Origin: Leclercia adecarboxylata
GTDB lineage: Bacteria > Pseudomonadota > Gammaproteobacteria > Enterobacterales > Enterobacteriaceae
Direction: 5' to 3'
Assembly: GCA_901472455.1 (NCBI GenBank)
Contig: LR590464.1
Location: 4,898,001-4,962,000 of the forward strand
DNA: 64,000 bases
This document shows positions 3,866 through 28,148 of this stretch, in pieces. Within the stretch, counting starts at the first letter, position 1; each line of letters begins with the position of its first letter. The notes below the pieces were generated by a model. It made no database searches. It was given only the letters and a program-made list of their open reading frames with translations, and was not told the DNA's origin. The position numbers were made by a program, and so were the translations under genes.

Positions 3866-4890
3866 TTGAAGTCCAGGAAAGAGGTTGCCTCGGCGACCAT
3901 GAAAGATGTTGCCCTGAAAGCAAAAGTCTCAACGGCAACGGTATCCCGAGCCTTAATGAATCCCGATAAAGTCTCTCAGAGCACGCGCAATCGTGTTGAG
4001 CAGGCTGCGCTGGAGGTGGGTTATCTGCCTCATGCGATGGGCCGTAACGTTAAACGTAACGAATCCCGCCACCATCCTGGTCATTGTGCCCGACATCTGC
4101 GATCCCTTTTTCAGCGAAATTATCCGCGGCATTGAAGTGGACCGCCGCGGCTCAGGGCTACCTGGTACTGATTGGTGACTGCGCGCACCAGAACCAGCAG
4201 GAAAAAACCTTTATCGACCTGATTATTACCAAGCAGATCGACGGCATGCTGCTGCTCGGCTCCCGTCTGCCCTTCGATGCCAGCATTGAAGAGCAACGCA
4301 ACCTGCCGCCGATGGTCATGGCCAACGAGTTTGCCCTGAGCTGGAACTGCCTACCGTTCACATTGATAACCTCACCGCAGCCTTCAACGCCGTGAACTAT
4401 CTACAGGAACTGGGCCATAAACGTATCGGCTGTATCGCCGGGCCGGAAGAGATGCGCTGTGCCATTATCGCCTTCAGGGTTACGTGCAGGCGCTGCGCCG
4501 CACCGGGGCGACGGTGGATCCGCACTATATTGCCCGGGGCGATTTTACCTACGCCGCAGGCGGCTGGCGCTGGAACAACTGCTGTCGCTGCCCCAGCCGC
4601 CGACCGCGGTGTTCTGCCACAGCGACGTGATGGCGCTGGGCGCGTTATCGTATGCCAAGCGTCGCGGCCTGAATGTGCCGAAAGATCTCTCTATTATTGG
4701 CTTCGATAACATTTCATTGTCTGAGTTTTGCGATCCGCCGCTCACGACCGTGGCGCAGCCCCGCTATGATATTGGCCGGGAAGCGATGCTGTTATTACTG
4801 GATCAACTGAACGGCCAAACGGTCAGCAGTGGCTCCCGTTTACTTGACTGTGAATTGATTGTTCGCGGTTCAACCCAGGCGCTAACGTAA
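3866..4890 (+). CDS. cytR: CytR, LacI-family repressor of nucleoside uptake and catabolism
   Basis: The TTG start at 3866, behind GAGGAGAAGAGG, gives MKSRKEVASATMKDVALKA, the equivalent of the E. coli start. The N-terminal helix-turn-helix reads DVALKAKVSTATVSRALM, the hinge KRNES, and the periplasmic-binding-like core includes IVPDICDPFFSEIIRGIE, GMLLLGSRLPFD, FCHSDVMALGAL and IIGFDN. CytR acts with CRP and is relieved by cytidine. The frame breaks about five times (near 4067, 4141, 4331, 4453 and 4560), each repaired by one base. It is on the same strand as ftsN, as in E. coli. Confidence 0.92.
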
Positions 4891-4983
4891 AGCCGCCGCC
4901 TTTCAGACTTCCTCATCTGGTCAAAGGCCCGTCGCTTAAGTAACATGACGGGCTGACAAACGATAAAATACAGCGAAACGATA

Positions 4984-5968
4984 GTGGCACAACGAGATTA
5001 TGTACGTCGCGGCCAGCCGGCACCTTCGCGACGCAAAAAGAGTAGCTCACGGAAACCGCAACGCAGCATGCCTGCGGTCTCGCCTGCCATGGTCGCGATT
5101 GCGGCGGCGGTACTGGTAGCATTCATCGGCGGCCTCTGGTTCATTACGCACCATAAAAAAGAAGAAGCAGAAGCGCTGCAGGGCAATAAAGTTGTCGGCA
5201 ATGGCTTACCCCCGAAACCGGAAGAGCGCTGGCGCTATATTAAAGAGCTGGAGAGTCGCCAGCCGGGCGTCCGTGCGCCGACAGAACCTTCTGCCGGTGG
5301 CGAGGGTGGTGGATCCCACTCAGTTAACAACGAACAGCGTCAGCTACTGGCACAGATGCAGGCCGATATGCGCCAGCAGCCCACCCAGCTTAACGAAGTG
5401 CCGTGGAATGAACAGACGCCGGCACAGCGCCAGCAAACGCTGCAGCGTCAGCGTCAGGCACAGCAGCAAACTCAGCAGCAGCAACAGTGGGCGCAGAGCC
5501 AGCCGGTACAGCAGCCTAAAGCGCAGCCGCGCGTAACGGAGCAGCCGTATCAGCAGCCGCGTACCGCGCAGACTCAGCCGGTTCAGCAGCCTAAAGCACA
5601 GCCGTCGAAACAAAATCAGCCGTATCAGGATCTGTTGCAGACCCCGGCGCATACCACCGCCCAGGCACCGAAAACGCAGCAGGCCGCGCCAATCACCAAA
5701 GAGACCGAGGCGCCAAAGCAGACGGCTGAGAAGAAAGACGATCGCCGCTGGATGGTACAGTGCGGCTCCTTTAAAGGGGCAGAGCAGGCAGAAACCGTAC
5801 GGGCGCAGCTGGCCTTTTGAAGGGTTTGACTCGCGCATCACCACCAATAACGGCTGGAACCGCGTGGTGATTGGGCCGGTCAAAGGCAAAGACAATGCCG
5901 ATGGCACCATCTCCCGTCTGAAGATGGCAGGTCACACAAACTGCATTCGACTCGCTTCCGGGGGTTGA
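4984..5968 (+). CDS. ftsN: FtsN, late divisome activator with SPOR domain
   Basis: The GTG start gives MAQRDYVRRGQPAPSRRKKS, a short basic cytoplasmic tail, then one membrane segment (VAIAAAVLVAFIGGLWFI, residues ~34-53), the essential periplasmic E-domain stretch (EERWRYIKELE), a long Gln/Pro-rich linker (codons ~110-235), and a C-terminal SPOR domain (WMVQCGSF ... AGHTNCIRL) that binds denuded glycan. One extra T near 5816 stops the frame in the middle of SPOR (QLAF*). Removing it gives EGFDSRITTNNGWNRVVIGP and the stop at 5968. FtsN is essential in relatives, so the break is not believable as biology. Confidence 0.94.
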
Positions 5969-9028: not shown

Positions 9029-9945
<917 letters not shown>

Positions 9946-9949
<4 letters not shown>

Positions 9950-10622
9950 ATTCTAAGCTCACGAACATATTCTGGGTTTGCCACAGGCGTAATTGTGCTC
10001 ATGAAAATGGGTAATCTTCCCAAGTGCGGTTCAAGTTTGCATGTTTTTTCAAGCGGATCAGGAAAGAGTAGAGGTAACACGCTTTTATTTTTATGTTCAC
10101 CAACAGGGCCATAATAATCCCAGATGCGGTATGCTTTTTCCTTAGCGCATATATGCAGAAAAGAAGTGTAGTCTGCATAGTTAACTGCCTGACAAAATCC
10201 AAATAGATTTGAAACAAGATCTTCAGCGCTATACCCACTATCAGTTAAAACCACATAAGGCCAAAAGTCCTGCAGCGATTCGAACTGGTGAGAGGTGCCT
10301 ATAAATATAGATAGAGCCACCCCCTGTAAAACGCGATCGCTAAGACCCCGACGCACTAAAAACCTTCTGTATATACCGGTAGTAATACCTATTCCAAAAA
10401 CATTCGTCGACATACTCTGGTCATAATTAACGTCGAACCAGGTATCATCTCCACCACGAGGCATGACCATTTGCTGCCATAACCTTTCGGCACCAGTTGG
10501 ATTGGCATGTCCAAGGTCGATCCATCCCAGATTTTCTGTATAAATAAGGCCTGTGGGGGTATTACGGGTAATATATCGGTCAGAATTATCGATAATATCA
10601 CTTTCGTTTAGTCATCTCGCAT
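9946..10622 (-). CDS. Unknown protein, weak resemblance to DUF4056
   Basis: A continuous frame from ~10601 down to 9946 encodes ~218 aa. It includes RYITRNTPTGLIYTENLGW, IDLGHANPTGAERLWQQM, GIYRRFLVRRGLSDRVLQG, DSGYSAEDLVSNLFGFCQAV and ICAKEKAYRIWDYYGP. The IYT-x6-DLGH and YSAEDLVSNLFG stretches recall DUF4056 from memory, which is not a firm match. The start is uncertain: ATG 10622 (MRDD...) needs one base restored near 10608 to enter the frame, and an even longer frame would begin inside the zapB terminator. No transmembrane segment or signal is evident in the readable part. It is the first gene of a two-gene minus-strand unit with the small membrane protein. Confidence 0.6.
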
Positions 10623-10663
10623 TCCCTGTGAGTAACGTAATGAGCGATCGTATTCTCTCCAAA

Positions 10664-10695
10664 TAAAAAAGGCATCCATTACAGATGCCTTTTTC
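10664..10695 (-). terminator. Terminator of zapB
   Basis: GGCATC-CATTACA-GATGCC hairpin (10671-10689) with A-run on one side and T-run on the other, so it could work in both directions. It lies just beyond the zapB stop. Confidence 0.85.
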
Positions 10696-10707
10696 AAAAA
10701 TTCGGAA

Positions 10708-24078: not shown

Positions 24079-24778
24079 ATGAATAAAATCCTGTTAGTTG
24101 ATGATGACCGAGAGCTGACATCCCTTTTAAAGGAGTTGCTCGACATGGAAGGCTTTGACGTGTCGGTAGCCCACGACGGGGAGCAGGCGCTGAGTCAACT
24201 CGACGATAGCATCGACTTGCTTTTGCTCGACGTCATGATGCCGAAGAAGAACGGTATCGACACCCTTAAAGAGCTGCGCCAGACGCACCAGACCCCAGTA
24301 ATTATGCTGACCGCGCGCGGTAGCGAACTCGATCGTGTACTTGGCCTTGAGCTGGGTGCCGATGACTATCTGCCTAAACCGTTTAACGACCGTGAGCTGG
24401 TGGCACGTATTCGGGCGATCCTGCGCCGTTCCCACTGGAGCGAGCAGCAGCAAAACACCGACAGCGGTTCGCCAACCCTTGAAGTCGACTCCCTGAGCCT
24501 GAATCCAGGCCGCCAGGAAGCCAGCTTCGACGGCCAGGCGCTGGAACTCACCGGCACCGAATTCACACTGGCTTTATCTGCTGGCGCAGCATCTGGGCCA
24601 GGTGGTATCGCGTGAGCATCTGAGCCAGGAAGTGCTGGGTAAACGCCTGACGCCGTTCGACCGGGCAATTGATATGCACATCTCTAACCTGCGCCGCAAA
24701 TTACCGGAGCGCAAGGATGGTCATCCGTGGTTTAAAACCCTGCGTGGACGCGGCTATCTGATGGTGTCCGCTTCATGA
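24079..24778 (+). CDS. cpxR: CpxR response regulator
   Basis: OmpR/PhoB class, 232 aa. Receiver MNKILLVDDDRELTSLLKE with phospho-acceptor Asp51 (LLLLDVMMPKKNG), Thr in MLTARG and Lys in DYLPKPFNDREL. The winged-helix C-terminus ends RKLPERKDGHPWFKTLRGRGYLMVSAS. An extra G near 24571 breaks the frame inside the DNA-binding domain (EFTLLYLLAQHLGQVVSREHL when corrected). The stop TGA overlaps the cpxA start as ATGA. Confidence 0.96.
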
Positions 24779-26148
24779 TAGGCAGCTTAACCGCCCGCAT
24801 CTTCGCCATCTTCTGGCTGACGCTGGCACTGGTTTTAATGCTGGTTTTGATGTTACCCAAACTCGACTCACGCCAGATGACGGAGCTTCTCGACAGCGAG
24901 CAACGTCAGGGTGTGATGATCGAGCAGCACGTAGAAGCAGAGCTGGCCATCGATCCGCCCAATGATTTGATGTGGTGGCGCAGGCTGTTTCGCGCTATCG
25001 AAAAATGGGCGCCGCCGGGACAACGCCTGCTGCTGGTGACCAGCGAAGGCCGCGTGATCGGGGCAGACCGCAATGAAATGCAGATTATCCGCAACTTCAT
25101 TGGCCAGGCGGATAACGCCGATCATCCGCAAAAGAAAAAATATGGTCGGGTAGAGATGGTGGGGCCATTCTCCGTCAATGACGGGGAGGATAACTACCAG
25201 CTCTACCTGATTCGCCCGGCAAGCAACTCCCAGTCCGATTTTATCAACCTGCTATTTGACCGCCCGCTGCTGCTGCTGATTGTTACCATGCTGGTGAGTT
25301 CACCGCTGTTGCTGTGGCTGGCGTGGAGCCTGGCGAAACCCGCACGTAAATTAAAAAACGCCGCGGATGAAGTGGCGCAGGGCAACCTGCGACAGCACCC
25401 GGAGCTGGAAGCCGGGCCACAGGAGTTCCTGGCGGCAGGGGCCAGCTTCAACCAGATGGTGGCGGCGCTTGAGCGGATGATGACCACCCAGCAGCGTCTG
25501 CTCTCTGATATTTCTCATGAGCTGCGCACCCCGCTGACGCGTCTGCAACTGGGCACCGCCCTGCTGCGCCGCCGTAGCGGAGAGAGCAAAGAGCTGGAGC
25601 GTATCGAAACCGAAGCGCATCGTCTGGACAGCATGATCAATGACCTGTTGGTCATGTCCCGCAATCAGCAGAAAAACGCGCTGGTCAGCGAGACGGTGAA
25701 AGCCAACCACCTGTGGCACGAGGTGCTGGATAACGCGGCATTCGAAGCGGAGCAGATGGGGAAATCCTTCACCGTCAACTTCCCGCCAGGCCCATGGCCG
25801 CTGTACGGTAACCCCAACACGCTGGAAAGCGCGCTGGAGAATATCGTACGTAACGCCCTGCGCTATTCGCATACCAAAATCGAGGTGGCGTTCTCGGTGG
25901 ACAAAGACGGCATCACCATCAACGTTGATGACGATGGCCCTGGCGTCAGCCCGGAAGATCGCGAGCAGATTTTCCGTCCGTTCTACCGTACCGACGAGGC
26001 GCGTGACCGTGAGTCCGGCGGCACCGGGCTGGGTCTGGCGATTGTCGAAACCGCGATGCAGCAGCACCGTGGCTGGGTGAAAGCCGATGACAGTCCGCTG
26101 GGCGGCTTGCGGTTAACGCTCTGGCTACCGTTGCACAAGCGTTCGTAA
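24775..26148 (+). CDS. cpxA: CpxA envelope-stress sensor kinase
   Basis: Intact, 457 aa. Membrane segment 1 (residues ~8-28), periplasmic sensor region, segment 2 (~165-185, LLLLIVTMLVSSPLLLWLAW), HAMP, then the H-box SDISHELRTPLTRLQ (His ~248), N-box NIVRNALRYS, DDDGPGVSPEDREQIFRPF and GGTGLGLAIVE. It phosphorylates or dephosphorylates CpxR in answer to envelope damage. It starts within the end of cpxR. Confidence 0.98.
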   Translation: MIGSLTARIFAIFWLTLALVLMLVLMLPKLDSRQMTELLDSEQRQGVMIEQHVEAELAIDPPNDLMWWRRLFRAIEKWAPPGQRLLLVTSEGRVIGADRNEMQIIRNFIGQADNADHPQKKKYGRVEMVGPFSVNDGEDNYQLYLIRPASNSQSDFINLLFDRPLLLLIVTMLVSSPLLLWLAWSLAKPARKLKNAADEVAQGNLRQHPELEAGPQEFLAAGASFNQMVAALERMMTTQQRLLSDISHELRTPLTRLQLGTALLRRRSGESKELERIETEAHRLDSMINDLLVMSRNQQKNALVSETVKANHLWHEVLDNAAFEAEQMGKSFTVNFPPGPWPLYGNPNTLESALENIVRNALRYSHTKIEVAFSVDKDGITINVDDDGPGVSPEDREQIFRPFYRTDEARDRESGGTGLGLAIVETAMQQHRGWVKADDSPLGGLRLTLWLPLHKRS

Positions 26149-26153
26149 TTATT

Positions 26154-26185
26154 GTGCCGGGTGGCGGCTTCGCCTTACCCGGCAT
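26154..26185. repeat. REP-like palindrome after cpxA
   Basis: GTGCCGGGTGGCGGCTTCGCCTTACCCGGCA: TGCCGGGT...ACCCGGCA arms with the GTGGCGGCTTCGCC core, a standard enterobacterial REP unit directly after the cpxA stop. Confidence 0.88.
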
Positions 26186-26207
26186 TGCATTCTAGCAAGG
26201 AGAATCG

Positions 26208-26237
26208 ATGTACTCTATCTCCTATATCTGCCTTTAG
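26208..26237 (+). other. Orphan ribosome site with a nine-codon ORF
   Basis: AAGGAG, seven bases, then ATG TAC TCT ATC TCC TAT ATC TGC CTT TAG. The Shine-Dalgarno is strong but the frame closes after MYSISYICL, exactly where the sequence turns AT-rich. It may be the decapitated start of a gene that lay downstream of cpxA before the SIR2-like insert, or a leader peptide; nothing further supports either. Confidence 0.3.
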
Positions 26238-26259
26238 ATTAACAACCTATATATTACTT

Positions 26260-27431
26260 CTAGGAAATATTTTTTTTACGGAGTTCTTCTCTAATCATGC
26301 TTAGAAATTTATTCTCAATATATAATTGTGAGTTAGTCTCGGTTTCAAATGCGTTACAGAAATCAGTAAACCCGCCCTGAATTAGGTCTACCCTATTTGC
26401 ATTTGAATTAAATATTTCTGGTACCATTGTCAAAAATGGATCATATACAACCACCTTTCTATTATTGTTTTTTTCGAACCAGTTCTTCAAAATTTCATTG
26501 ATATGCTTGTCACCAAAACTGTAGCCAATCACACTCAAACAATCGATCTTATCAATTCGCTTTTCAAATAAATTCATAAATGAGACAGGGACGATTTGTT
26601 GAAATCTCTTCTGAAATTTATGTTTCCCAGATAGTAAAGATCTTCTGAGAAACTGAAGTTCACCATCATTATCGAAAGTAAGAACTTCATTCGCTGTCCG
26701 AAGACCATCTCGTTTACATATTGATATATTTAGATTTTCAACCTTCCTTATTTCATTAAAAATTCCATCTATACATTGTGTATCGCCATATACTTTTAAA
26801 AAAGCAGTTTATCCTCTACTGCAAACATATCAATAGATCCATGCAATTTTATTAAATTAAAACCAGAATCACAATCTTTGAAAAAATCGAATGAATCATC
26901 ATCTATTTGTTTAGCGGTTAAACATTTAAAATTAGCGATGTTACTATAGTTTGTATTTTGATGATAAAAACCATCTTTAAACCTGATATTATGATGATTA
27001 CAGATGCTTTCAAAAACAACATCATGGTTTAAAGAGAATACATATGTACACTCTTTTTTTTCAAGAATTTTTCTTAATCCAACATAATGATTAACTTTAG
27101 CTTTGAATAGTAAATTGATATTACCTTGAATTTCCAACAGTAAGAGCTGAATGCATTCTATAAATTGAAGGATTATGTGGTGGGTAACCTCGCGATTCAG
27201 TTCGTTATCAAGATACTTTTCTTCTAACAAACCAACCATATCTTCATAATGAAGAGTCTTATCTTCAATTAATCCTTTAAAAAAGTCTTTTGCTTTTTCA
27301 TCTCCATGGAAATTAAACAGTTTGGTATGAAGTCTTTTTAAAATATTTTTCCTTATAACGTCAGTAAATTCCCATACTAAAGGCATACCCACTTCATAAG
27401 AAGCCCCAGCACCTAAAAAAATCCCATCCAT
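26260..27431 (-). CDS. SIR2-like domain protein, candidate NADase / phage-defence gene
   Basis: One protein of ~390 aa once a T is restored in the T-run near 26800 (EDKLLFLKVYGD). Visible motifs in order: N-terminal nucleotide-binding MDGIFLGAGASYEVGMP (residues 1-17), CTYVFSLNHDVVFESI (~145), LIKLHGSIDMF (~195) and a late VIGYSFGDKHINEILKN (~295). This order (GAGAS, N-HD, LHGS, YSF-D-H) is that of bacterial SIR2-like proteins, many of which are NAD+-consuming antiphage effectors. The Asn/His-Asp pair typical of NADase activity is kept. No effector partner, HerA or TIR gene lies nearby. It is far more AT-rich than its neighbours and has AT-rich codon use, a sign of transfer. It lies between convergent cpxA and yiiM. 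Confidence 0.75.
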
Positions 27432-27473
27432 CTTGACCTCGAAACTATTAATTCAAAGAAAACTCAAAACATA

Positions 27474-28148
27474 TTACTTCCCCCACAATCTCCGTGAATT
27501 ATCTTCGATCTTGTTGCTAAGTCGCCGCTTCTGCATGGTTCTGGTCCAGCTGATGGATAGCCCCGCCGCCGACAGCAGACGGTGATATTGCTCATCATCA
27601 AACGGCATATGCCAGGCGATAGCACAGGCGTCATACACCGACACATCGCTCAGGCGAGAGACCAGCGTCAGCGGCGCATCCGTTTCGACCTTCCCTGCTA
27701 AAATCACCCGATACAGCCAGCCGGTTTTCCCGGCATTTTGCATCTGCGTAGCGATATCGCTGATACCGAAGTGGAAGTTGAGCTTGAAGCAGGGAGACCG
27801 CGGCTGAGTGACCTGGATCAGGGCCTCGCCCCAGCGAAAGATATCCCCGATAAATACGTTCTTCTCGGTCAGCCCTTCGGTTGACAGGTTTTCGCCAAAA
27901 GCCGGGGCGACGAAAAGCCCGGCCTGGTCAGGGTATTCGCTGGCCCAGAATGCATAATGCTCGCGCGGATAGTGGCACAGCGCCCGATCCGGCCCGCCGT
28001 GGATTTTCTTCTCCGCCTGCTCATCGCCCACCAGCCCTTTTTCGGTGAGGGAGAGCTCGCCGTCAACCTGCAGTTTGGCAATCGCGCTCGGGCGGCTGCC
28101 TTCGTAATCCTTTATTTTTCCGATAAATACGTTAACGGGATGATTCAT
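27474..28148 (-). CDS. yiiM: YiiM, MOSC-domain molybdoenzyme (N-hydroxylated base reductase)
   Basis: Intact, 224 aa. MOSC domain with EKKIHGGPDRALCHYPREHY, PAFGENLSTEGLTE and the Moco-ligating cysteine in QPRSPCFKLNFHF, then the C-terminal three-helix part WHMPFDDEQYHRLLSAAGLS. E. coli YiiM reduces 6-hydroxylaminopurine and similar mutagenic bases. RBS AAGGAGGCGCG precedes ATG 28148. The kdgT gene that separates it from sodA in E. coli is absent. Confidence 0.95.
   Translation of the reverse strand: MNHPVNVFIGKIKDYEGSRPSAIAKLQVDGELSLTEKGLVGDEQAEKKIHGGPDRALCHYPREHYAFWASEYPDQAGLFVAPAFGENLSTEGLTEKNVFIGDIFRWGEALIQVTQPRSPCFKLNFHFGISDIATQMQNAGKTGWLYRVILAGKVETDAPLTLVSRLSDVSVYDACAIAWHMPFDDEQYHRLLSAAGLSISWTRTMQKRRLSNKIEDNSRRLWGK

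Follow-up and report, generated by a model that had tools for sequence, protein, structure and literature searches.

Our analysis of the interval between cpxA and yiiM in Leclercia adecarboxylata suggests that it carries a gene gained by horizontal transfer, whose product, a SIR2-like NADase with a single domain, belongs to a rare clade and would probably serve as an NAD+-destroying phage defence; we hold this composite reading with moderate confidence. The clade is, by sequence comparison, related to the SIR2 subunits of SIR2-HerA and yet distinct from them. What we observed is the family of the protein, its co-linearity with the E. coli SIR2, the foreign origin of the gene, the lack of an adjoining HerA gene, a motif peculiar to the clade and the mobile surroundings of its relatives; NADase activity and a part in defence are inferred. 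The window, here and below, is the whole stretch of 64,000 nucleotides that was analysed; its features are collected in Table 1.

The gene and its reading frames

The first-pass annotation of this DNA had described a gene of about 390 residues with the motif order of bacterial SIR2-like NADases. All of these motifs (GAGASYE, SLNHDVVFE, KLHGSID and GYSFGDKHI) are present on the minus strand, but they do not share one open reading frame: the first three lie in an N-terminal frame and GYSFGDKHI in another, C-terminal one, the two overlapping at about 26796-26805. The length therefore holds not for a single ORF but by analogy with intact relatives of 392, 397 and 400 aa. The N-terminal frame is 42-47% identical to relatives and matches a PADLOC SIR2 profile (E 5.9e-13), as does the C-terminal frame. 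A family profile built from three intact relatives matches the own genome twice at this locus, over positions 1-245 (the first 211 residues being supplied by the open N-terminal frame) and 212-386 (the C-terminal frame, E 6.1e-45). Combined, the frames cover about positions 1-386 of the 397-position profile, so that the family sequence appears to continue without loss from one to the other.

Table 1. Features at the cpxA-yiiM interval (positions in the window)
Feature	Position	Strand	Remarks
cpxA	24775..26148	+	convergent neighbour; 83% identity to E. coli cpxA
Palindrome, which we take to be REP-like	26149..26183	.	borders the insert; 22 further matches in own genome
AT-rich insert	26184..27473	.	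about 1.29 kb; absent from related species
10-bp direct repeat, left copy	26251..26260	.	ATATTACTTC; brackets the gene
SIR2-like C-terminal frame	26260..26805	-	182 codons including stop; contains QFLRRSLLSGKHKF and GYSFGDKHIN
ATG-started ORF within the C-terminal frame	26260-26577
SIR2-like N-terminal frame	26796..27431	-	211 aa; contains GAGASYE, SLNHD and KLHGS
10-bp direct repeat, right copy	27471..27480	.	overlaps the yiiM stop codon
yiiM	27474..28148	-	upstream neighbour on the strand of the SIR2-like gene, 42 bp apart; E. coli annotation

Foreign origin and distribution

The GC content of the gene is 30.4% and that of the insert 30.5%, against 57.2% for the window minus the insert, which agrees with the earlier remark that the gene is more AT-rich than its surroundings; at a sampling step of 50 bp, the insert is the lowest-GC stretch of 1290 bp in the window and no other is as low. 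The gene is found in one of 61 species of the genus, its own, and is not part of the genus core. Judged from its 30% GC and this distribution, it is horizontally acquired. Its absence from the E. coli gene order, also claimed at first, was seen in one E. coli strain, where 170 bp separate cpxA from yiiM; a search of 5,426 E. coli genomes at E 1e-5 gave no DNA match to the insert.

As the pattern scans reach close relatives only, all counts of relatives are lower bounds. In the family scan, at least five of 392 genomes matched, the own one included: G267 is the only match over the full query (45% identity), G074 holds a short SIR2 remnant, G123 gives a weak match and G400 has a SIR2 gene with HerA downstream. 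The phylum sample gave at least three matching genomes in 398 (own included), the class sample only the own one in 369, and the family of G663 only G663 in 199. The plasmid scan found one Vibrio plasmid (42% identity), and the same scan started from a relative added a single remote Arthrobacter protein; the viral contigs and the genome contigs yielded one relative each, the phage contig L011 and a contig of Aidingimonas. A search of 50,697 phage records at a threshold of E 1e-5 found no relative, the other viral scans added none, and no further SIR2_2 match was seen in the own genome.

The insertion site

As first stated, the gene lies between convergent cpxA (+) and yiiM (-). The sequence is homologous to the empty site in related species up to 26183 and again from about 27475, at the yiiM stop; the palindrome next to the left border is also present at the empty site of several of these species. 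No other gene-sized ORF was found in the insert, which thus lacks a transposase or integrase. The 10-bp repeat around the gene, a possible target-site duplication, was spotted post hoc as one of seven direct-repeat families listed; when the left side was simply shuffled 20,000 times, a match as good arose in 92 cases. TTACTTCCCCC also precedes the yiiM stop in L030. Because the gene follows yiiM in the same direction after 42 bp, read-through from yiiM is possible, and promoter and terminator scans of the locus stayed at chance level.

The suggestion that the cpxA-yiiM gap is a small defence hot spot was rejected, as the gap is short in the genus, in a family sample and in E. coli. It measures at most 347 bp in 57 of 60 other species of the genus, in raw distances taken from two listings with slightly different measuring ends. 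In the other three, the gap is occupied by an IS481 transposase (G023) or by an operon of a GntR regulator, a TIM-barrel protein (by eye) and an MFS protein (G020, G025). Among 74 genomes of the family (own included), 49 have a DNA match; by eye, cpxA and yiiM are adjacent in 12 other genera, 11 of them with a gap of at most 139 bp, and the gap of the remaining one (G121) holds an operon that by eye resembles that of G020 and G025. In E. coli, 5,052 of 5,375 matching genomes have 80% or more of the site at a single location, a criterion that permits inserts of up to about 860 bp; the one genome opened among the other 323 has an IS621-family (IS110-like) transposase in the gap (L085, 7607-8587). 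As a separate observation, the GntR/TIM-barrel (by eye)/MFS operon spans about 3.3 kb and occupies the gap at L047, L049 and L067, in three species of two genera, the family models having been run on L049 only.

SIR2 family and domain layout

Both PADLOC SIR2 profiles and solved SIR2 structures place the protein in the SIR2-like NADase family, as the first-pass annotation had proposed. Intact relatives match the PADLOC profiles down to E 8.6e-18. An 8-row family profile found three solved sequences at E <=0.01, all labelled SIR2: the 8j4u group (8j4u, 8sub, 8uae and others; E 1.2e-14), by title E. coli SIR2-HerA or Nezha, together with 8yhx and 8w9l, which are assigned by their titles alone. 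Against the E. coli SIR2 the profile aligns in two stretches, 4-233 and 270-335 of 399, and the alignment is co-linear through GAGAS, NHD (against NYD), KLHGS and GYSFGDEHVN (against GFGFGDYHIN). The GYSFGD strand of the SIR2 domain falls at about 305, and a tail of about 60 residues follows the domain; the remoter G663 protein is longer, with 483 aa. Sensing had been tentatively ascribed to a C-terminal half at residues ~215-390. We reject such a separate sensor half, since co-linearity with the E. coli SIR2 carries the SIR2 domain itself to 335 of 399.

Other searches gave smaller signals. The Pfam SIR2_2 match lies below its cut-off, and NCBIfam NF042942 (SIR2_antiphage) shows a weak likeness around the GYSFGD strand, scoring at best 42.5 bits in the relatives and 24.8 bits for the C-terminal piece of the window, far under its cut-off of 500; the control SIR2 loci found with this model are likewise below it. 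The two window pieces alone had no convincing match among solved structures. The AlphaFold model of the phage relative is poor (pLDDT 52.3, pTM 0.38). Used as a Foldseek query, it found nothing at E <=0.001, and the best 31 of the 50 matches listed are sirtuin or SIR2-HerA entries (E 0.018-0.15), a ranking that we count as slight support.

Neighbourhoods of the clade

The lack of an obvious partner, claimed at the outset, extends to the clade: HerA, Argonaute and TIR are all absent as immediate neighbours in the window and five relatives (the Vibrio plasmid, Aidingimonas, the phage contig, G267 and G663). None of these six loci has a DUF87 (HerA) protein as immediate neighbour, whereas a DUF87 ORF stands directly downstream in 11 of 11 other SIR2 loci used as control. 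For the control, 295 genomes from the same bacterial family were searched with NF042942, which gave 13 matches in 10 of them, all below cut-off; ten of these matches were opened (left out were L080, a 140-aa frame, L083 and one without a locus) and L016 was added; the comparison concerns immediate neighbours, the Pfam scan having covered part of the ORFs within 8 kb.

The neighbours vary from locus to locus. They are cpxA and yiiM in the window, two proteins without Pfam match on the Vibrio plasmid and again in G663, an exonuclease/phosphatase-family protein and a phage integrase in Aidingimonas, and a DUF4276 protein (HEC-01B) and an AsnC-type regulator in G267. On the phage contig (5.8 kb), the relative at 4389-5567 lies directly behind the terminase large subunit, and the contig ends 273 bp after the gene. 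The Vibrio plasmid is mobilizable and carries annotated MqsR/MqsA and an FRG gene matching the candidate defence family PDC-S15. In G267, the candidate defence pair HEC-01A/HEC-01B adjoins the SIR2 gene (L056, 5695-8808), and a near-identical pair stands beside the SIR2 remnant of G074, from another genus (L014), within an island that is 91-100% identical between the two; none of the papers listed for HEC-01 carries that name. This island aside, SIR2 is the only specific protein common to the loci in an all-vs-all ORF comparison, the other matches being, by eye, regulator- or receptor-like pairs.

The catalytic motif

The Asn of SLNHD and the HG His of KLHGS are kept in the window and five relatives (L010, L011, L012, L013 and L064). 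SLNHD itself is found in the window, G267, Vibrio, Aidingimonas, G663 and the remote G483, and the phage relative has FLNHY. The N-Y-D pocket of ThsA, DSR2 and Sir2-HerA is thus replaced by N-H-D (N-H-Y in the phage relative), while all 11 HerA-linked SIR2 proteins read TTNYD. The remote Arthrobacter protein reads TLNYD and has no HerA match in its two scanned neighbours, so N-H-D marks this clade and not every HerA-less SIR2. In DSR2, the Y134A exchange in NYD is described as obviously decreasing NAD+ degradation (PMC11263360), and with N-H-D in the clade activity cannot be assumed; antiphage SIR2 domains can, according to the account of Avs5, vary at catalytic motifs, with NG for HG (PMC12931631).

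In a tree of 17 relatives, the window left out, a single branch (94/93; 90% of 200 bootstrap trees) divides HerA-linked from HerA-less proteins, in a topology with 5 of 14 inner branches open and with long branches that meet. The HerA-less Arthrobacter protein joins the HerA side, away from this clade.

Comparison with known systems

The nearest known protein is the SIR2 of SIR2-HerA or Nezha, with which the clade shares a single co-linear SIR2 domain of about 400 aa, the Asn and His, and the GY/F-S/G-FGD strand. It differs in having no adjoining HerA gene, in N-H-D for N-Y-D and in its place on the other side of the tree branch, to which the long-branch warnings apply; membership was rejected on HerA adjacency (0 of 6 clade loci against 11 of 11 controls). 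DSR1 and DSR2 are described as SIR2 defence proteins without a HerA partner. DSR2 depletes NAD+, abortive infection having been proposed, but it has a long C-terminal region (HTH, helix bundle, HEAT) where the clade has its short tail, and it was rejected because the relatives of 392-400 aa end about 60 residues past the SIR2 domain (the remoter G663 protein having 483 aa); DSR1, likened by description alone, is said to act without cell death. ThsA of Thoeris is described as a SIR2 NADase with an Asn-His dyad. The clade keeps this Asn and His, yet has N-H-D where ThsA has N-Y-D, leaves no space in which a second ligand domain could fit and lacks a TIR gene next to it; Thoeris was rejected since cpxA and yiiM, and no ThsB/TIR, flank the gene. 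SPARSA (SIR2-APAZ with Argonaute) was rejected as well, Argonaute being no immediate neighbour in the window or the relatives.

The vertebrate FAM118A/B (SIRal) offer an analogy only, with no sequence match to the clade found. They are reported as SIR2_2 sirtuins close to antiphage sirtuins whose head-to-tail filaments process NAD; by the same report, FAM118A and FAM118B each have almost no activity without the other (PMC12700824), so they do not exemplify a SIR2 that works entirely by itself.

Proposed function and alternative readings

A role as phage-defence effector is, from the sequence comparisons, probable for the intact protein. It would most likely be idle in healthy cells and, upon phage infection, would hydrolyse NAD+ and keep the phage from multiplying, a response that the cell itself would probably not survive. 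With no partner encoded next to it, the protein could be activated through oligomerisation, by analogy with the FAM118 filaments, or through direct binding of a phage product. Relatives on a mobilizable plasmid, in a phage contig, beside an integrase and beside HEC-01A/B are consistent with defence, and NAD+ hydrolysis on infection is described for Thoeris, DSR2, Sir2-HerA and Avs5, usually with cell loss, the drop in Avs5 being a passing one (PMC12931631). What weighs against this reading is that the NADase and defence role is derived from sequence, together with the sub-threshold Pfam SIR2_2 and NF042942 scores, the N-H-D motif, the poor structure model and the broken copies in the window and Aidingimonas. 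In the accounts consulted, SIR2 defence enzymes depend for their activation either on a partner (HerA, a ThsB signal, Argonaute) or on an extra sensor region (DSR2, Avs5); a clade that does without both would point to the minimum that a SIR2 immune switch requires. The boldest form of the idea, a speculative one that we consider unlikely, is that the clade is a self-sufficient immune enzyme, a bare SIR2 domain of about 390 residues that would both sense the phage and destroy NAD+ with His for Tyr beside the catalytic Asn, and whose gene would move unaccompanied, a short direct repeat on either side of it. SIR2, phage and SLNHD as whole words were not found together in the papers searched from 2020 on, and no title on lone SIR2 systems, in a search of titles only, concerned a single-domain SIR2 without partner.

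Self-sufficiency would fail if the protein needed a partner encoded elsewhere, such as a HerA-type ATPase. The closest solved relatives named by title are the SIR2 chains of E. coli SIR2-HerA, deletion of herA in V. cholerae is reported to abolish Nezha phage resistance (PMC11559045), and in the own genome a single DUF87 protein passes the cut-off, with two weak matches under it. That protein, however, is about 440 kb away, the same search matches 14 of 14 control genomes, E. coli included, and the contrast between the controls, with DUF87 directly downstream, and the clade, where it is never an immediate neighbour, makes such a partner a quite improbable requirement. The His next to the catalytic Asn could instead belong to an NAD-dependent enzyme outside defence, for ADP-ribosyl transfer or plasmid or prophage upkeep, carried on mobile DNA, and the plasmid and phage-contig relatives, of putative function, would fit with this. 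We regard it as decidedly doubtful, because candidate defence genes (HEC-01, PDC-S15) lie near two relatives and the best of the three solved matches, the 8j4u group, is by title an E. coli SIR2-HerA or Nezha defence protein.

A further alternative bears on the window copy alone: a defence gene might have been acquired and its frame lost afterwards, leaving a genuine pseudogene. The gene does lie in two frames, and degraded relatives are known from G074 (the remnant) and Aidingimonas (L010, itself frame-broken). Yet, with ORFs of the sister species G002 as reference (89% identical on the yiiM side of the site and 93% on the cpxA side; 49 ORFs taken, 11 of them lacking a match of sufficient quality or length), 20 of the 38 conserved genes in the window align in more than one frame; these include the genes read as cpxR and fieF and one that is presumably pfkA. 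The own genome scores 78% complete despite being a single contig of 5.06 Mb, and the frames otherwise cover the family profile. An error-rich assembly is the simplest reading of the split genes, and any pseudogene within the record needs care; since the conserved genes are split alike, the break in the SIR2-like gene is probably an assembly error, and gene death is a somewhat unlikely explanation. In practice, the copy in this record is split and unfit for use as deposited. The genes surveyed for splits span positions 1562-54953 of the window. Within that span, a second AT-rich stretch (about 40-46% GC; 9400-10700), between genes that by eye are rraA-like and zapB-like, contains broken minus-strand ORFs, four of them without a Pfam match.
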